DNA of 21,366 nt, from positions 1 to 21,366 of the IMG/VR virus record IMGVR_UViG_3300032086_004469, one strand, 5' to 3'. Positions 1,277 to 21,059 of this stretch are shown here, one piece after another. This DNA comes from a virus. Numbering within the stretch: position 1 is the stretch's first letter; each line of letters begins with the position of its first letter. Made by a program: the position numbers and the translations under genes. The notes beneath the pieces were generated by a model. The model was not told the origin of the DNA and made no database searches. It saw only the letters and a list, made by a program, of their open reading frames with translations.

Positions 1277-1342
1277 CCTTAAATAAAAATAGGTCGGTGC
1301 ATAACTAATATACTAAACAGGGGATGGATGGTGGGCGTTATT

Positions 1343-1366
1343 AAAAGGCACTTCGGTGTCTTTTTT
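1343..1366 (+). terminator. Rho-independent terminator after the Hsp20 gene
   Basis: AAAAGGCAC, a TTCG tetraloop and GTGTCTTTT form a 9-bp stem inside a run of six T residues. It lies 67 nt after the Hsp20 stop. The open frame of the next gene reads back through it, which argues that the real start of that gene is downstream. Confidence 0.8.
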
Positions 1367-1378
1367 ATGGAACTGTAT

Positions 1379-1384
1379 TATAAT
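1379..1384 (+). promoter_or_regulatory. Possible -10 hexamer for the glycosylase-like gene
   Basis: A perfect TATAAT lies 6 nt before the ATG at 1391, just after the upstream terminator. No convincing -35 hexamer was found at 15-18 nt spacing, so this is tentative. If real, transcription would start at or next to the ATG. Confidence 0.3.
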
Positions 1385-1390
1385 AAGTAC

Positions 1391-1831
1391 ATGCAGACTT
1401 TTTTACCTTACGCATCATTTAAAGAATCAGCTAAAGCTTTAGATTATAGAAGACTTGGAAAGCAGCGAGTAGAGGTTTTACAGCTACTTAACAGTATTAA
1501 AAAGCTTAAGAATAACGAACCGGTTAAAGGTTGGAAGAATCACCCAGCTAGAAAAATGTGGTATAATGATAAGGGTGACTATACAAACGCTTTATGTTTA
1601 TATGGTCTATCCATCTGTAAAGAATGGAAGAGGAGAGGTTATAAAGATACGTGTACTGAAAAGATAGAAGCTCATTTTGATAAGTCTAAACCAGTCGTTT
1701 ACCCTAAATTTATCAACGATGCTAGAGTGCATCTATCCCATAGAAGTAACCTTATAAAGAAAGATAATAGCTACTATAAGGATAAATTTAAACGTACTGG
1801 TAAAGATATTGAATATTTCTGGAGTTATTAA
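1391..1831 (+). CDS. Pyrimidine-dimer DNA glycosylase-like protein (Pyr_excise-type)
   Basis: The chosen start gives 146 residues beginning MQTFLPYASF. The segments MQTFLPY, ALDYRRLGKQRVEVLQLL, WKNHPARKMW and LCLYGLSICKEWKRRGYKD form the conserved core of a small phage and bacterial family usually annotated as pyrimidine-dimer DNA glycosylase, related to T4 endonuclease V. Such enzymes cut the glycosidic bond at UV dimers, which would suit a phage in sunlit water. The frame stays open to 1328, but that extension is made of the preceding terminator, so I use the internal ATG that matches the family N-terminus. The family match is from memory of motifs; activity on dimers is inferred from annotation practice and is less certain than the family. 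Confidence 0.7.
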   Translation: MQTFLPYASFKESAKALDYRRLGKQRVEVLQLLNSIKKLKNNEPVKGWKNHPARKMWYNDKGDYTNALCLYGLSICKEWKRRGYKDTCTEKIEAHFDKSKPVVYPKFINDARVHLSHRSNLIKKDNSYYKDKFKRTGKDIEYFWSY

Positions 1832-1839
1832 GTATTAAG

Positions 1840-2097
1840 ATGGAAACAATCGGTTGGACTTATACTGTATGTTTTGCTATTTGTTATGTACCGCAAATAG
1901 TAAAAAGTTTAACAACAAAAAAAGTTGATGATGTAAGTGTATCTCTCTTTGCGCTATCACTTATCGGATACATATCAGCTCTTACGTATACTATTGGAGA
2001 AATAGGTTTAAACCCAATTCTAATAACTAACTATATATCTGGAGGACTATGTAGTTTATTAATGATAATTATATTTTTATGCTACAAAAAGAATTAA
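1840..2097 (+). CDS. PQ-loop / SemiSWEET-like small membrane protein
   Basis: This 85-residue protein is almost entirely membrane-embedded, with three predicted helices at about residues 4-23, 34-54 and 59-81. The first helix contains CYVPQI (15-20), the Pro-Gln signature of PQ-loop proteins, followed by a polar SLTTKKVDDVSVSLF linker typical of the MtN3/SWEET/SemiSWEET group. Bacterial SemiSWEETs are three-helix half-transporters that dimerise in the inner membrane to move sugars by facilitated diffusion, and the size and topology fit. The substrate cannot be read from the sequence. It starts 8 nt after the glycosylase-like gene and overlaps the next gene by 19 nt, so the three are probably one transcript. 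Confidence 0.72.
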   Translation: METIGWTYTVCFAICYVPQIVKSLTTKKVDDVSVSLFALSLIGYISALTYTIGEIGLNPILITNYISGGLCSLLMIIIFLCYKKN

Positions 2098-5561: not shown

Positions 5562-5566
5562 ATAAT

Positions 5567-5574
5567 TATTTACT
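5567..5574 (-). promoter_or_regulatory. Late-promoter octamer upstream of the coiled-coil gene
   Basis: AGTAAATA on the minus strand ends exactly 5 nt before the ATG at 5561. It lies back-to-back with a host-type promoter for the plus-strand DNA-modification operon. Confidence 0.5.
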
Positions 5575-5601
5575 TGATAACTCAGCTTTAGTATATATAA
5601 T
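5574..5601 (+). promoter_or_regulatory. Sigma70-like promoter of the DpdA-like/kinase/QueF operon
   Basis: TTGATA (5574-5579), 16 nt, then TATAAT (5596-5601) reads as a host vegetative promoter and contains no TAAATA late element. Transcription would begin about 7 nt downstream, at or next to the ATG at 5609. An early promoter would suit a DNA-modification operon needed before packaging. This is a sequence call without expression data. Confidence 0.5.
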
Positions 5602-5608
5602 ATAACAT

Positions 5609-6400
5609 ATGTTAGTATCACATGAAAGTCCTATCTCCATTCTAGATAAGTCGCGTGAGTATAATGATTATGATTACGCGCTTGTACATCTATTTGAAAC
5701 GCATCCCGAGTATTATGAATACTTTAAAAACAGTGTCAAACTTGGCAGAGAAGTTCTGCTAGATAATAGTATCTTCGAACTCGGCGAGGCGTTTGATTCT
5801 GAAAAATTTGCAAAATATACTAAAGAGCTTAAGCCGAGCTATTATATTGTACCCGATGTATTGGAGGATGGATATGCTACTATTAAAAGCTTTTCTGAGT
5901 TTACATCGAAATATACCGATCTACCCGGTTTAAAGATCGGTGCCGTGCAAGGTAAAACGTATGATGAAATTGTTGACTGTTATCGGTATATGTCAGAATA
6001 TGCTGACTACATTGCTATTAGTTTCGACTTTAGCTATTACATTGCAACGGGCCGTGGTAAGACAAAGCTTGAGAGATGGTGCTCTGGCAGACAAAAATTA
6101 ATTAACGATCTTAAAAGTGACGGTATCTGGAATGCGAATAAACCGCATCACTTATTAGGATGCTCTCTCGCTCGTGAATTTAAGAAATACGTCGGTGATA
6201 GGTCGATTAGATCTGTTGATACTTCAAATCCAGTCGTCGCCGGTATTAAGGAACTCCGATATACTGGTGATCTAGGATTAAATGAGAAACCTTCTATTAT
6301 GTTAGCGGATCTTATTGATCACGAAGTAACAGATACAGAATGGGAAAACATCGATCATAACGTTTGGTGCTTTAAAGATATTATTGGACATGGTTATTAG
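5609..6400 (+). CDS. dpdA: TGT-superfamily DNA transglycosylase, DpdA-like (7-deazaguanine insertion)
   Basis: This 263-residue protein has the strand-loop pattern of a TIM-barrel tRNA-guanine transglycosylase relative. Recognisable segments are LLDNSIFELGEAFD (50-63), YYIVPDVLEDGYATI (78-92), KIGAVQGKTYDE (109-120), HHLLGCSLAREF (180-191) and IRSVDTSNPVVAGI (200-213). Asp52, Asp83 and Asp204 are candidate catalytic acids. Phage DpdA enzymes exchange guanine in DNA for a 7-deazaguanine base. The call is strengthened by the QueF gene in the same operon. The protein is shorter than bacterial TGT (about 370 residues) and lacks its Cys-x-Cys-x-x-Cys zinc site, arguing against a normal tRNA enzyme. 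It overlaps the kinase gene by 11 nt. A DNA rather than RNA substrate is inferred. Confidence 0.68.
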   Translation: MLVSHESPISILDKSREYNDYDYALVHLFETHPEYYEYFKNSVKLGREVLLDNSIFELGEAFDSEKFAKYTKELKPSYYIVPDVLEDGYATIKSFSEFTSKYTDLPGLKIGAVQGKTYDEIVDCYRYMSEYADYIAISFDFSYYIATGRGKTKLERWCSGRQKLINDLKSDGIWNANKPHHLLGCSLAREFKKYVGDRSIRSVDTSNPVVAGIKELRYTGDLGLNEKPSIMLADLIDHEVTDTEWENIDHNVWCFKDIIGHGY

Positions 6401-6938
6401 TTTTACAGGGGCTCAAAGTACAGGTAAATCTACCTTACTTGAAAGATGTAAGTTGGACGAAAAGTTCAGGAAATTCGATTTTGAACCTGAAGTTACTCGT
6501 TGGGTAAAGAAAACCTATGGGTTAGCTATTAACGAAGAAGGTGACGATACGACTCAATTATCAATTCTTAGCAGACATTTACATAACTATCTCTATTATA
6601 AAAATAAGGATGTTATTATGGATAGGTGTATTTTAGATGGATTGGTGTATACAACATATCAGTACTGTCAAGAAAAAGTAAGTCGTGGGGTATATGACTA
6701 TGCTGAACTTTTATTTAAGAAGTTAATTGATAAGGTTGATATAATTTTCTATACTGAACCTGATATTGAACTCGTTGACGACGGTGAGAGAAGTGTCGAT
6801 GAGGAGTTTAGAGAAACGATCATTAAATTATTTGAAGAAGCAATTGATCATTACGATATTAAGGTAGTAAGATTAAGCGGATCAGTTGAAAATCGCATGA
6901 ACATCATTTATAATACAGTAAACAATTATGGCAAATAA
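6390..6938 (+). CDS. P-loop nucleotide/nucleoside kinase-like protein (AAA_28/NadR-type)
   Basis: Read from the ATG at 6390 this is 182 residues. A Walker A motif, GAQSTGKST, lies at residues 7-15 directly after the first strand. Other segments include FEPEVTRWV (about 31-39) and VIMDRCILDGLVYT (75-88), whose Asp-Arg pair resembles the DR(x) motif of thymidylate and nicotinamide-riboside kinases, and a strand ending YTEPD where a Walker B-like base-binding loop would follow. The fold is a small-molecule phosphotransferase of the AAA_28/NadR-kinase group; the substrate is not evident. It overlaps both neighbours by exactly 11 nt (6390-6400 and 6928-6938), so its product is probably coupled to the DpdA-like and QueF proteins. 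It might phosphorylate a nucleoside or a cofactor precursor. Confidence 0.75.
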   Translation: MVISFTGAQSTGKSTLLERCKLDEKFRKFDFEPEVTRWVKKTYGLAINEEGDDTTQLSILSRHLHNYLYYKNKDVIMDRCILDGLVYTTYQYCQEKVSRGVYDYAELLFKKLIDKVDIIFYTEPDIELVDDGERSVDEEFRETIIKLFEEAIDHYDIKVVRLSGSVENRMNIIYNTVNNYGK

Positions 6939-7857
6939 AGAGTTAGATAACAGTAGAATTAGTAAACACCTAGGTCAGACATCTCAATATAAGAGTACGT
7001 ATGATCCTGAATTGCTCGTAAAAGAGCCGCGTAGTAATAATAGAGAGTATCTCAATATTTTTAACGATGATCTCCCTTTCGTCGGTTCAGATACATGGAA
7101 TGCATATGAATGCTCGTTTCTCTTAGATACCGGATTACCAGTTACCGGTGTGTTGAAGATTAACTATCCGTGTGATAGTGAGTATATTGTTGAAAGTAAA
7201 AGTATTAAGCTTTACTTAAACTCATTTAATATGCAAAAGATGGGGAATGATAAAGCAGATGCTATTAAGAAGTTTGAAGAAACAGTTAGCAACGATTTAA
7301 CCTCTCTTCTCGGCGGTCAAGCTAGTGTATACTTCCATCTCGGCCATCAAGTAGATAGTTGTAATATCGGTGCCGGTCGAGAGTGGGATATTGGAGAGTA
7401 TGAAAACGTAGATCTACAGGATACTAATGGGTTAGAAATTACTCAATATACAGAAGATCCGACGTTGATTGAGGGTATGTTCGACGAAGGCGTAGAAGTA
7501 GAACAGAAGTTTTACTCCGGCTTACTTAAGAGTAACTGCCGTGTAACGTCTCAACCTGACTGGGGCGATGTATTTATTCACCTTAAGTCAAATGTAGTTA
7601 TCGATCCTCAATCTATTCTAAAGTATGTTATTTCTTTTAGAGATGAGTGTCATTTCCATGAAGAAATCTGTGAATGTATCTATAAGCGTTTATACGATAT
7701 GTGTAACCCTTCTGAGTTGTTTGTTATGTGTTTATATGCACGGAGAGGCGGTATTGATATTAATCCTGTAAGAGCGACTAGTAATGAGCTTATTAGAGAT
7801 TTAGCTCCAAGCTTGATTGATACTTCGATAGCGCATATCAAGACGTCTAAGCAATAA
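6928..7857 (+). CDS. queF: QueF, NADPH-dependent 7-cyano-7-deazaguanine (preQ0) reductase, long bimodular form
   Basis: QueF reduces the nitrile of preQ0 to the aminomethyl of preQ1 using two NADPH. This 309-residue protein has the length and two-module layout of the E. coli-type enzyme. Diagnostic motifs are VESKSIKLYLNSF (88-100), the QueF substrate-binding signature, and LKSNCRVTSQPDWGD (200-214). The latter holds the nucleophile Cys204 and the proton-shuttling Asp211, seven residues apart as in the E. coli enzyme. Also present are ECHFHEEICECIY (240-252), with the His-Glu pair, and ARRGGIDINPVR (271-282). All catalytic residues are intact. It is the last gene of the operon and overlaps the kinase gene by 11 nt. 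With the DpdA-like enzyme it would supply preQ1 for DNA. Use in tRNA queuosine synthesis is the alternative. Confidence 0.93.
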   Translation: MANKELDNSRISKHLGQTSQYKSTYDPELLVKEPRSNNREYLNIFNDDLPFVGSDTWNAYECSFLLDTGLPVTGVLKINYPCDSEYIVESKSIKLYLNSFNMQKMGNDKADAIKKFEETVSNDLTSLLGGQASVYFHLGHQVDSCNIGAGREWDIGEYENVDLQDTNGLEITQYTEDPTLIEGMFDEGVEVEQKFYSGLLKSNCRVTSQPDWGDVFIHLKSNVVIDPQSILKYVISFRDECHFHEEICECIYKRLYDMCNPSELFVMCLYARRGGIDINPVRATSNELIRDLAPSLIDTSIAHIKTSKQ

Positions 7858-7871
7858 TTATATAATTAGAC

Positions 7872-7908
7872 AAAAAAAGAGACCTGGCTCATTAATGAAC
7901 CAGGTCTC
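7872..7908 (-). terminator. Rho-independent terminator after the major capsid gene
   Basis: On the minus strand a perfect 9-bp stem, GAGACCTGG with CCAGGTCTC, is extended by three more pairs past one mismatch and followed by seven T residues. It lies 25 nt after the gp23-like stop. In the plus direction no T run follows, so it should terminate only the capsid transcript. Confidence 0.88.
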
Positions 7909-18088: not shown

Positions 18089-18559
18089 TTATTTATCCCA
18101 TGGAAAGACATACCACGCATCACCTTCATGCTCTATACCGTAATACCCATCCTGCCACTGTGATGACTGTCTTCTTACACACGCTGAATAGTAAATCTCA
18201 CCAAGCTCTCCTCTCTCAAAATGCTGGGCAAGATATTCGCTAACTTCCTTGAACGTTCTTCCTGAATCATTTATATCATCTACTACTAAAACATTTCCGA
18301 AGAGATTTGAATGTCCATAGAATTCAGTAGACTCTACCTCTCTTGTTCTCACACCCAACATCTCCATTTGCGGCTTTTCTAGACTATAACTCATTATAGT
18401 AGCAGGTACCATCCCACCCCTAGCAATACCTAGAATAGTATCGATAACAATACCCTCGCTCTTAAGTTGATCTAAAATGCTCTTACAGCATTCAGTTACC
18501 TCATCCCATGATAGATGTTTTAATTCAGTACTTTCGGCCATATTATAATTATAGGCCAT
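18089..18559 (-). CDS. Purine-type phosphoribosyltransferase (Gpt-like)
   Basis: This 156-residue protein has the type I phosphoribosyltransferase fold. The PRPP-binding motif VLVVDDINDSGRTF lies at about residues 90-103, the loop GIARGGMVPA at 44-53, and the C-terminus ends AWYVFPWDK as in xanthine-guanine phosphoribosyltransferases of the Gpt group. The family transfers phosphoribose from PRPP to a purine base; substrate choice (guanine, xanthine, hypoxanthine or another base) is not readable. A second ATG at residue 7 is possible. It sits among late virion genes, with an octamer 17 nt upstream that overlaps the previous stop codon. It may salvage purines or supply a nucleotide for DNA synthesis; a link to the 7-deazaguanine operon is only speculation. 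Confidence 0.85.
   Translation of the reverse strand: MAYNYNMAESTELKHLSWDEVTECCKSILDQLKSEGIVIDTILGIARGGMVPATIMSYSLEKPQMEMLGVRTREVESTEFYGHSNLFGNVLVVDDINDSGRTFKEVSEYLAQHFERGELGEIYYSACVRRQSSQWQDGYYGIEHEGDAWYVFPWDK
18090..18097 (-). promoter_or_regulatory. Late-promoter octamer upstream of the gp15-like gene
   Basis: GATAAATA followed by ATTAA on the minus strand, ending exactly 5 nt before the GTG start at 18084. It lies inside the end of the phosphoribosyltransferase gene and helps choose this non-ATG start. Confidence 0.5.
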
Positions 18560-20291: not shown

Positions 20292-21059
20292 ATGTATAAT
20301 CAAAGCCCGTATAAAGAAATACCTGAAGAGTTAAAAGATAAATTTACAATGAATGGTAAGATTCCCATTCTTAACTGGTGGTTTGATGGTACAAAAGATA
20401 TAAGTTCTATAGGAGAGGATGTATGGACTGATGAATATATTCAATCACATTGTGATAGATTCACAGTTGATAATATTAGTAATAATAGAGAAGGAAAAAG
20501 CCCATACGGGCATGAATCCGTATCTAATCTTCTAAAATCGTTTCAAGATTATGATATATCTAATAAACGCGTAGCTGTAGTTGGCTCTCTTGTACCATGG
20601 ATAGAGGCAATGCTAATCAATCTCGGTAACGATGTAACCACTATTGAGTATAATGTACCAACCACAAAGTTTACAAATCTACAATGTAAAGATTATTTTA
20701 ATTACTTCATGAGTAATGAAGATCAATTTGATGCTATTATATCGTTTTCATCTATAGAGCATAGTGGCTTAGGTAGATATGGTGACCCGCTAGATCCTGA
20801 CGGTGATATACATACAATGAATGTTATAAGAAAGAATCTCAAAGATAACGGAATACTTATATGGGGATCGCCTGTCGGGTGGGATACGTTAGTATGGAAC
20901 GCTCACCGGGTATATGGTCCAATAAGAATGCCTATACTGTTTAAAGACTTCATAAAACAGCAATGGTATGGCACATCCGAGGAGCAGCTATTTAGAGGCA
21001 ACAAAGTTGCCCAGATAAACGGCTATCAGCCTGTAGTCGTTCTTAGAAAGAAAACTTAA
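20292..21059 (+). CDS. DUF268-family protein with methyltransferase-like fold
   Basis: This 255-residue protein has the motifs VAVVGSLVPWIEAML (94-108), DAIISFSSIEHSGLGRYGD (147-165) and WNAHRVYGPIRMPILF (202-217). They match the DUF268 family of uncharacterised proteins from bacteria, viruses and nematodes. The early strand-loop-helix with an acidic residue at the end of the next strand (TIEYN, 117-121) resembles an S-adenosylmethionine-binding Rossmann fold, and SSIEH parallels the motif after strand four of methyltransferases, so it may be a methyltransferase-like enzyme of cell-surface sugar metabolism. Its biochemical activity is not established. It is transcribed with or just after the thermonuclease, and the non-coding stretch from 21060 follows. 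Confidence 0.72.
   Translation: MYNQSPYKEIPEELKDKFTMNGKIPILNWWFDGTKDISSIGEDVWTDEYIQSHCDRFTVDNISNNREGKSPYGHESVSNLLKSFQDYDISNKRVAVVGSLVPWIEAMLINLGNDVTTIEYNVPTTKFTNLQCKDYFNYFMSNEDQFDAIISFSSIEHSGLGRYGDPLDPDGDIHTMNVIRKNLKDNGILIWGSPVGWDTLVWNAHRVYGPIRMPILFKDFIKQQWYGTSEEQLFRGNKVAQINGYQPVVVLRKKT

Follow-up and report, generated by a model that had tools for sequence, protein, structure and literature searches.

A three-gene cassette among structural genes

The window, by which we mean the whole stretch of 21,366 bases analysed here, is a 21-kb fragment of the genome of a marine, T4-like phage (gp23 capsid, gp20-type portal and prohead protease genes), the wider gene content of which was read from larger relatives; searched as a whole against the GenBank phages by megablast, it gave no match. 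Three genes lie in order on its plus strand, flanked by a region of base-plate genes and by the capsid gene and on the opposite strand. These are dpdA (5609-6400), encoding a DpdA3-type, TGT-fold protein of 263 aa that is assigned by homology and model and has a predicted guanine transglycosylase activity; a nucleotide or nucleoside kinase gene (AAA_28, P-loop; 6390-6938), assigned by Pfam, fold and gene linkage; and queF (6928-7857), encoding a bimodular 7-cyano-7-deazaguanine reductase of 309 aa, assigned by its domains and catalytic residues. The kinase reading frame can start at TTG 6384 (184 aa) or at ATG 6390 (182 aa), and with the latter start both junctions overlap by exactly 11 nt (6390-6400 and 6928-6938), just as an earlier note on this sequence had read them. 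Among 84 homologous three-gene arrangements, a count that certain contigs entered twice, the overlap is again 11 nt at the dpdA/kinase junction in 62 and at the kinase/queF junction in 53, so the tight coupling is conserved. Upstream of the cassette, the promoters of both the cassette and the divergent gene probably lie in a short AT-rich gap (5562-5608, taking ATG 5561 as the start of the divergent gene), and downstream a perfect hairpin (GAGACCTGG...CCAGGTCTC; 7879-7908), set where queF and the capsid gene converge, is probably a two-way terminator. Elsewhere in the window are genes for an Hsp20 chaperone and a pyrimidine-dimer glycosylase (860-1276 and 1328-1831, plus strand), a phage-encoded PQ-loop (SWEET-like) membrane protein of 85 aa (1840-2097, plus strand), a phosphoribosyltransferase that could serve purine salvage (18089-18559, minus strand) and, at 20292-21059 on the plus strand, a protein without a PHROG match that strongly matches (3e-32) DUF268, a Pfam family that takes its name from Caenorhabditis proteins.

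The product of the first gene has no match in Pfam. Its AlphaFold model (pLDDT 96) can be matched from end to end with TGT and with bacterial DpdA, and in Foldseek and VIA-align comparisons residues 1-263 fit TGT, archaeosine TGT and DpdA 7ui4 with Z scores of about 17 (17.7 to the TGT-type structure 1iq8 and 17.0 to 7ui4). The structure search thus places the model, with its TGT-type barrel, inside the TGT superfamily, in agreement with the TGT/DpdA-type pattern that had been noticed in the sequence. The top GenBank match is the 'DNA guanine transglycosylase' of Flavobacterium phage immuto (54%), proteins of the Campylobacter phage CP220 type are 47% identical over 99% of the protein, and the protein matches phrog_19058. 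We take this branch (CP220/immuto type) to be DpdA3, which was reportedly defined by Cui et al. in 2023; a search for DpdA3 in PubMed Central found no relevant paper. Asp52, Asp83, Gln114, His181 and Asp204 are conserved in the DpdA3 alignment, with the three aspartates invariant and Gln114 nearly so. A profile alignment pairs Asp52/Asp83/His181/Asp204 with Asp72/Asp114/His196/Asp215 of DpdA1 at a probability of 1.9%, too weak a match to show homology alone, and it is the fold comparison that establishes the homology. Net charge, used as a test of DNA binding, makes DpdA3-type proteins on average somewhat more acidic than DpdA1, with overlapping ranges that render the test indecisive. One relative (L114, 6001-7621) has two DpdA-type genes in tandem, the second of which is about 31% identical to the window DpdA.

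The second gene product matches PF13521 (AAA_28; 3.4e-16) and has a P-loop, and its modelled fold is nearest to the NadR kinase domain, the deoxynucleoside kinases dCK/dGK and TMPK. On this model it is a small NadR/dNK/TMPK-like P-loop kinase, with a fold that matches nucleoside and nucleotide kinases alike and cannot separate the two. The family is usually annotated as thymidylate kinase, as is the homologue in the deposited immuto genomes, where the gene order is also visible. In the third gene product both Pfam domains exceed their cut-offs (QueF_N, 4.9e-32; QueF, 6.3e-23), and the protein has Cys204, Asp211, an ESKS motif and His244-Glu245, all shared with the immuto phage protein, which bears out the earlier description of QueF, with its substrate motifs, as secure. 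Against the NCBIfam equivalog TIGR03138 it scored 255.6 bits, below the cut-off of 293.45 bits, and we therefore file it in the QueF family by its domains, with the exact reaction predicted.

Linkage of the kinase to DpdA3

The survey for the same three-gene order that the earlier note had proposed was run over viral contigs and gave 80 relatives, in which the order DpdA-kinase-QueF or DpdA-PurN-kinase-QueF is kept almost throughout. A second scan reached distant members, and a kinase-type gene lies at most 5 kb from dpdA in 105 of 117 distinct DpdA3-like loci. The known sequence ends at dpdA in seven of the other 12, two have PurN-kinase-QueF 6-7 kb off, and three (L110, L127 and L194) have no kinase visible within 5 kb, although L127 has a weak partial kinase match elsewhere on its contig. 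The 18 GenBank records with a DpdA of at least 47% identity are the same 18 that have the kinase at E <= 6e-21, and of five loci found on scanning 84,980 species genomes, three have kinase and QueF nearby.

DpdA1 (phage 9g) and DpdA2 (phage nt-1) resemble the window system in combining a TGT-type transglycosylase with 7-deazaguanine synthesis genes, but the enzymes are larger (approximately 300-350 and 464 aa, compared to 263 aa in the window) and the modified fraction is about 2% of G or less (Dp-1, nt-1). In the 5 kb around 15 DpdA1/DpdA2 loci we found a single DUF3310 gene and not one P-loop kinase. The profiles for counting kinases were derived from the same neighbourhoods in which kinases were counted, so these control loci were also scanned for Walker A motifs, which gave two matches only, both in ORFs antisense to annotated genes. 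A kinase dedicated to the DpdA3 pathway is, on these gene neighbourhoods, well supported. The earlier note had seen in the kinase a meaningful part of the operon and not a standard one; the first half of that view stands, whereas the gene is no oddity of this phage but a near-constant partner on the DpdA3 branch. The kinase as a fixed DpdA partner is not described in the literature searched, though the 2023 paper of Cui et al. may mention it. That this DpdA family exists and is connected with complete replacement was known before, and what is new here is the kinase.

The Firehammervirus phages CP220 and CPt10 encode the same type of DpdA (gp056, 47% identical) and, directly 3' of it, a kinase of the same family (gp057), but their cassette is without QueF, has an HD+AAA_33 gene upstream and belongs with a different published base, dADG. 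Flavobacterium phage immuto has homologues of DpdA, kinase and QueF in the same order as the window and differs from it in the linked FolE, QueD, QueE, MazG-like protein and PurN-like formyltransferase. At the place that the HD, dpdA and kinase genes occupy in CP220, Campylobacter phage CC_R7 carries two other genes, one of them DUF7487 (L196, 14732-17349); no trace of dpdA or the cassette kinase was found at this syntenic place, QueD-type genes remain, and CC_R7 keeps a second, divergent kinase despite being without DpdA and the cassette kinase.

Other kinase families in the same slot

The slot between PurN and QueF is filled in ten loci by a protein of 84-122 aa from PF11753 (DUF3310), assigned by Pfam in four of them and by profile in the others, and no AAA_28 kinase was found in the 82-kb record that carries DUF3310. 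The DpdA tree requires the swap from kinase to DUF3310 to have happened at least twice, on branches that are well supported. The family is that of gp1.7 of phage T7, which is unrelated in sequence to the window kinase and is not known to be tied to DNA modification in T7. T7 gp1.7 phosphorylates dGMP and dTMP (PMC7693777, PMC12846349). Bacteroidetes-type relatives (the Cellulophaga/Chryseobacterium-type branch) have an AAA_18 kinase as the partner, and in Bacillus and Weizmannia phages a thymidylate-kinase-like protein overlaps dpdA, with a DNA polymerase gene next. Judged by these exchanges, the slot is a place for nucleotide kinase function and not for one protein.

In three loci (L106, 3489-4457; L103, 2279-3265; L109, 3489-4457) the AAA_18-type P-loop kinase is fused to a small T-fold-like protein (phrog_17812, of unknown function) whose resemblance to the QueD/T-fold family was judged by eye, and in relatives such as Cellulophaga phage phiST the phrog_17812-type protein and the AAA_18 kinase are encoded by neighbouring, unfused genes. 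MazG-like pyrophosphohydrolases are present in two DpdA3 branches; as a universal partner MazG was rejected, with no match in CP220 or in the 185-kb relative of the window (G001). An HD-domain dGTPase was likewise rejected as a general partner, being above the cut-off in CP220 only, with a sub-threshold match in immuto and none in six IMG/VR records.

A proposed base exchange at the nucleotide level

Why some phages replace guanine fully by a deazaguanine, compared to about 2% or less in other DpdA phages, is unexplained; in CP220 and CPt10, 100% of dG is reported to be replaced by dADG (PMC8306585). Our preferred but tentative reading, whose chances we put just short of even, is that the cassette gives the phage DNA a preQ1-type 7-deazaguanine by way of free nucleotides. 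PreQ0, of phage or host origin (QueC is encoded in the 185-kb relative), would be reduced to preQ1 by QueF, and DpdA3 would then put preQ1 in place of guanine in free dGMP (or deoxyguanosine). By phosphorylation the kinase would bring the deazaguanine deoxynucleotide closer to the triphosphate, the general host nucleoside-diphosphate kinase would add the final phosphate, and the phage polymerase would insert the deazaguanine dNTP in place of dG, which would allow complete replacement and would explain the figure published for CP220. The QueF step and the TGT chemistry rest on family knowledge, while the role of the kinase and the free-nucleotide level are suggested by linkage and replacement, since a kinase that is dedicated and yet repeatedly replaced points to the dNTP pool. 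What the data show is to which fold and family each protein belongs, that the linkage is conserved and that other nucleotide-kinase families have repeatedly taken the place of the kinase; the substrates, the timing of the exchange on free nucleotides and the base that ends up in the DNA are inferred. The earlier note had offered either an extra modification step or a new precursor route, and it is the second that we retain, because a near-constant partner swapped for other nucleotide kinases fits a nucleotide-level precursor route better than it fits an extra modification of the base. The presence of preQ1 in the DNA is a prediction, and the anti-restriction role that the earlier note ascribed to such a base is putative.

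It is conceivable, although we lean slightly against it, that DpdA3 works as a transglycosylase on free deoxynucleotides and not on DNA, and that, together with its near-obligatory kinase, it provides a second pre-replicative route to full replacement. By analogy, and with slightly less than even confidence, this route might be regarded as the deazaguanine counterpart of the Z-genome pathway (MazZ, PurZ, DatZ; cyanophage S-2L), which also reaches full replacement via the nucleotide pool, MazZ making dGMP from dGTP (PMC8342488). The comparison is one of mechanism and not of membership: the search for such genes covered MazG-like and HD ones, MazG-like enzymes occur in some DpdA3 relatives, and a base exchanger and a dedicated kinase would replace PurZ/DatZ. 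If true, the claim would shift the reaction from finished DNA to the nucleotide level, mononucleotides would be possible substrates of TGT-fold enzymes, and fully substituted DNA could be made with deazaguanine dNTPs from a small set of genes. The linkage of the kinase makes the site of base exchange a question for simple enzyme assays.

We know of no TGT that acts on mononucleotides, and no paper on the insertion of deazaguanine at the nucleotide level was among those listed by a search for the subject. The three loci with no kinase in view, and the want of a MazG match in CP220 and the 185-kb relative, speak against the nucleotide-level route. The accepted view, which also counts against it, is that DpdA exchanges bases on finished DNA (PMC12783734). 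If DpdA3 does the same, which is the main rival reading, the kinase may recycle the released guanine products to GTP/dGTP, after a phosphoribosyltransferase or salvage enzymes have turned the guanine into (d)GMP, and the GTP would also feed FolE and hence preQ0. Complete exchange would free large amounts of guanine, and in many relatives FolE has phosphoribosyltransferase genes close by, with one also in the window (18089-18559). We nevertheless consider recycling unlikely, as the DUF3310 family that stands in for the kinase is known for dGMP and dTMP and not for GMP, and the kinase stays with PurN and QueF even at a distance of 6-7 kb from DpdA, as would be expected of an enzyme for the modified compound.

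We consider it decidedly improbable that the kinase serves dNTP supply in general, as a thymidylate or dNMP kinase placed beside dpdA by chance or convenience. The usual annotation of the family agrees with such a role, as do distant relatives in Streptomyces phages outside the DpdA3 match list, but the coupling to DpdA3 is near-constant across many phage types and absent near DpdA1/DpdA2, the second, divergent family member elsewhere in CP220 could do the general job, and the window cassette stands among structural genes, outside any nucleotide-metabolism block. Phosphorylation of the modified base itself (in DNA or as a free precursor), which would activate it towards a heavier derivative on the model of the 5-hydroxymethyl-dU DNA kinase, has a precedent in the P-loop kinases of hypermodified phages, and the formyltransferase-like PurN beside the kinase in relatives makes further modification of preQ1 plausible, but we hold it to be very improbable given that preQ1 has an amine to offer and no hydroxyl, that the CP220 kinase adjoins DpdA without a linked QueF in a phage with dADG as its reported base, and that a swap for a DUF3310 dNMP kinase would then make no sense.

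Returning to the nucleotide-level route, the window-type branch is without PurN beside the kinase, so plain preQ1 would be its likeliest base. In the branch with PurN the DNA may contain a formylated form, and from its gene content the base in immuto DNA is likely to be formylated.
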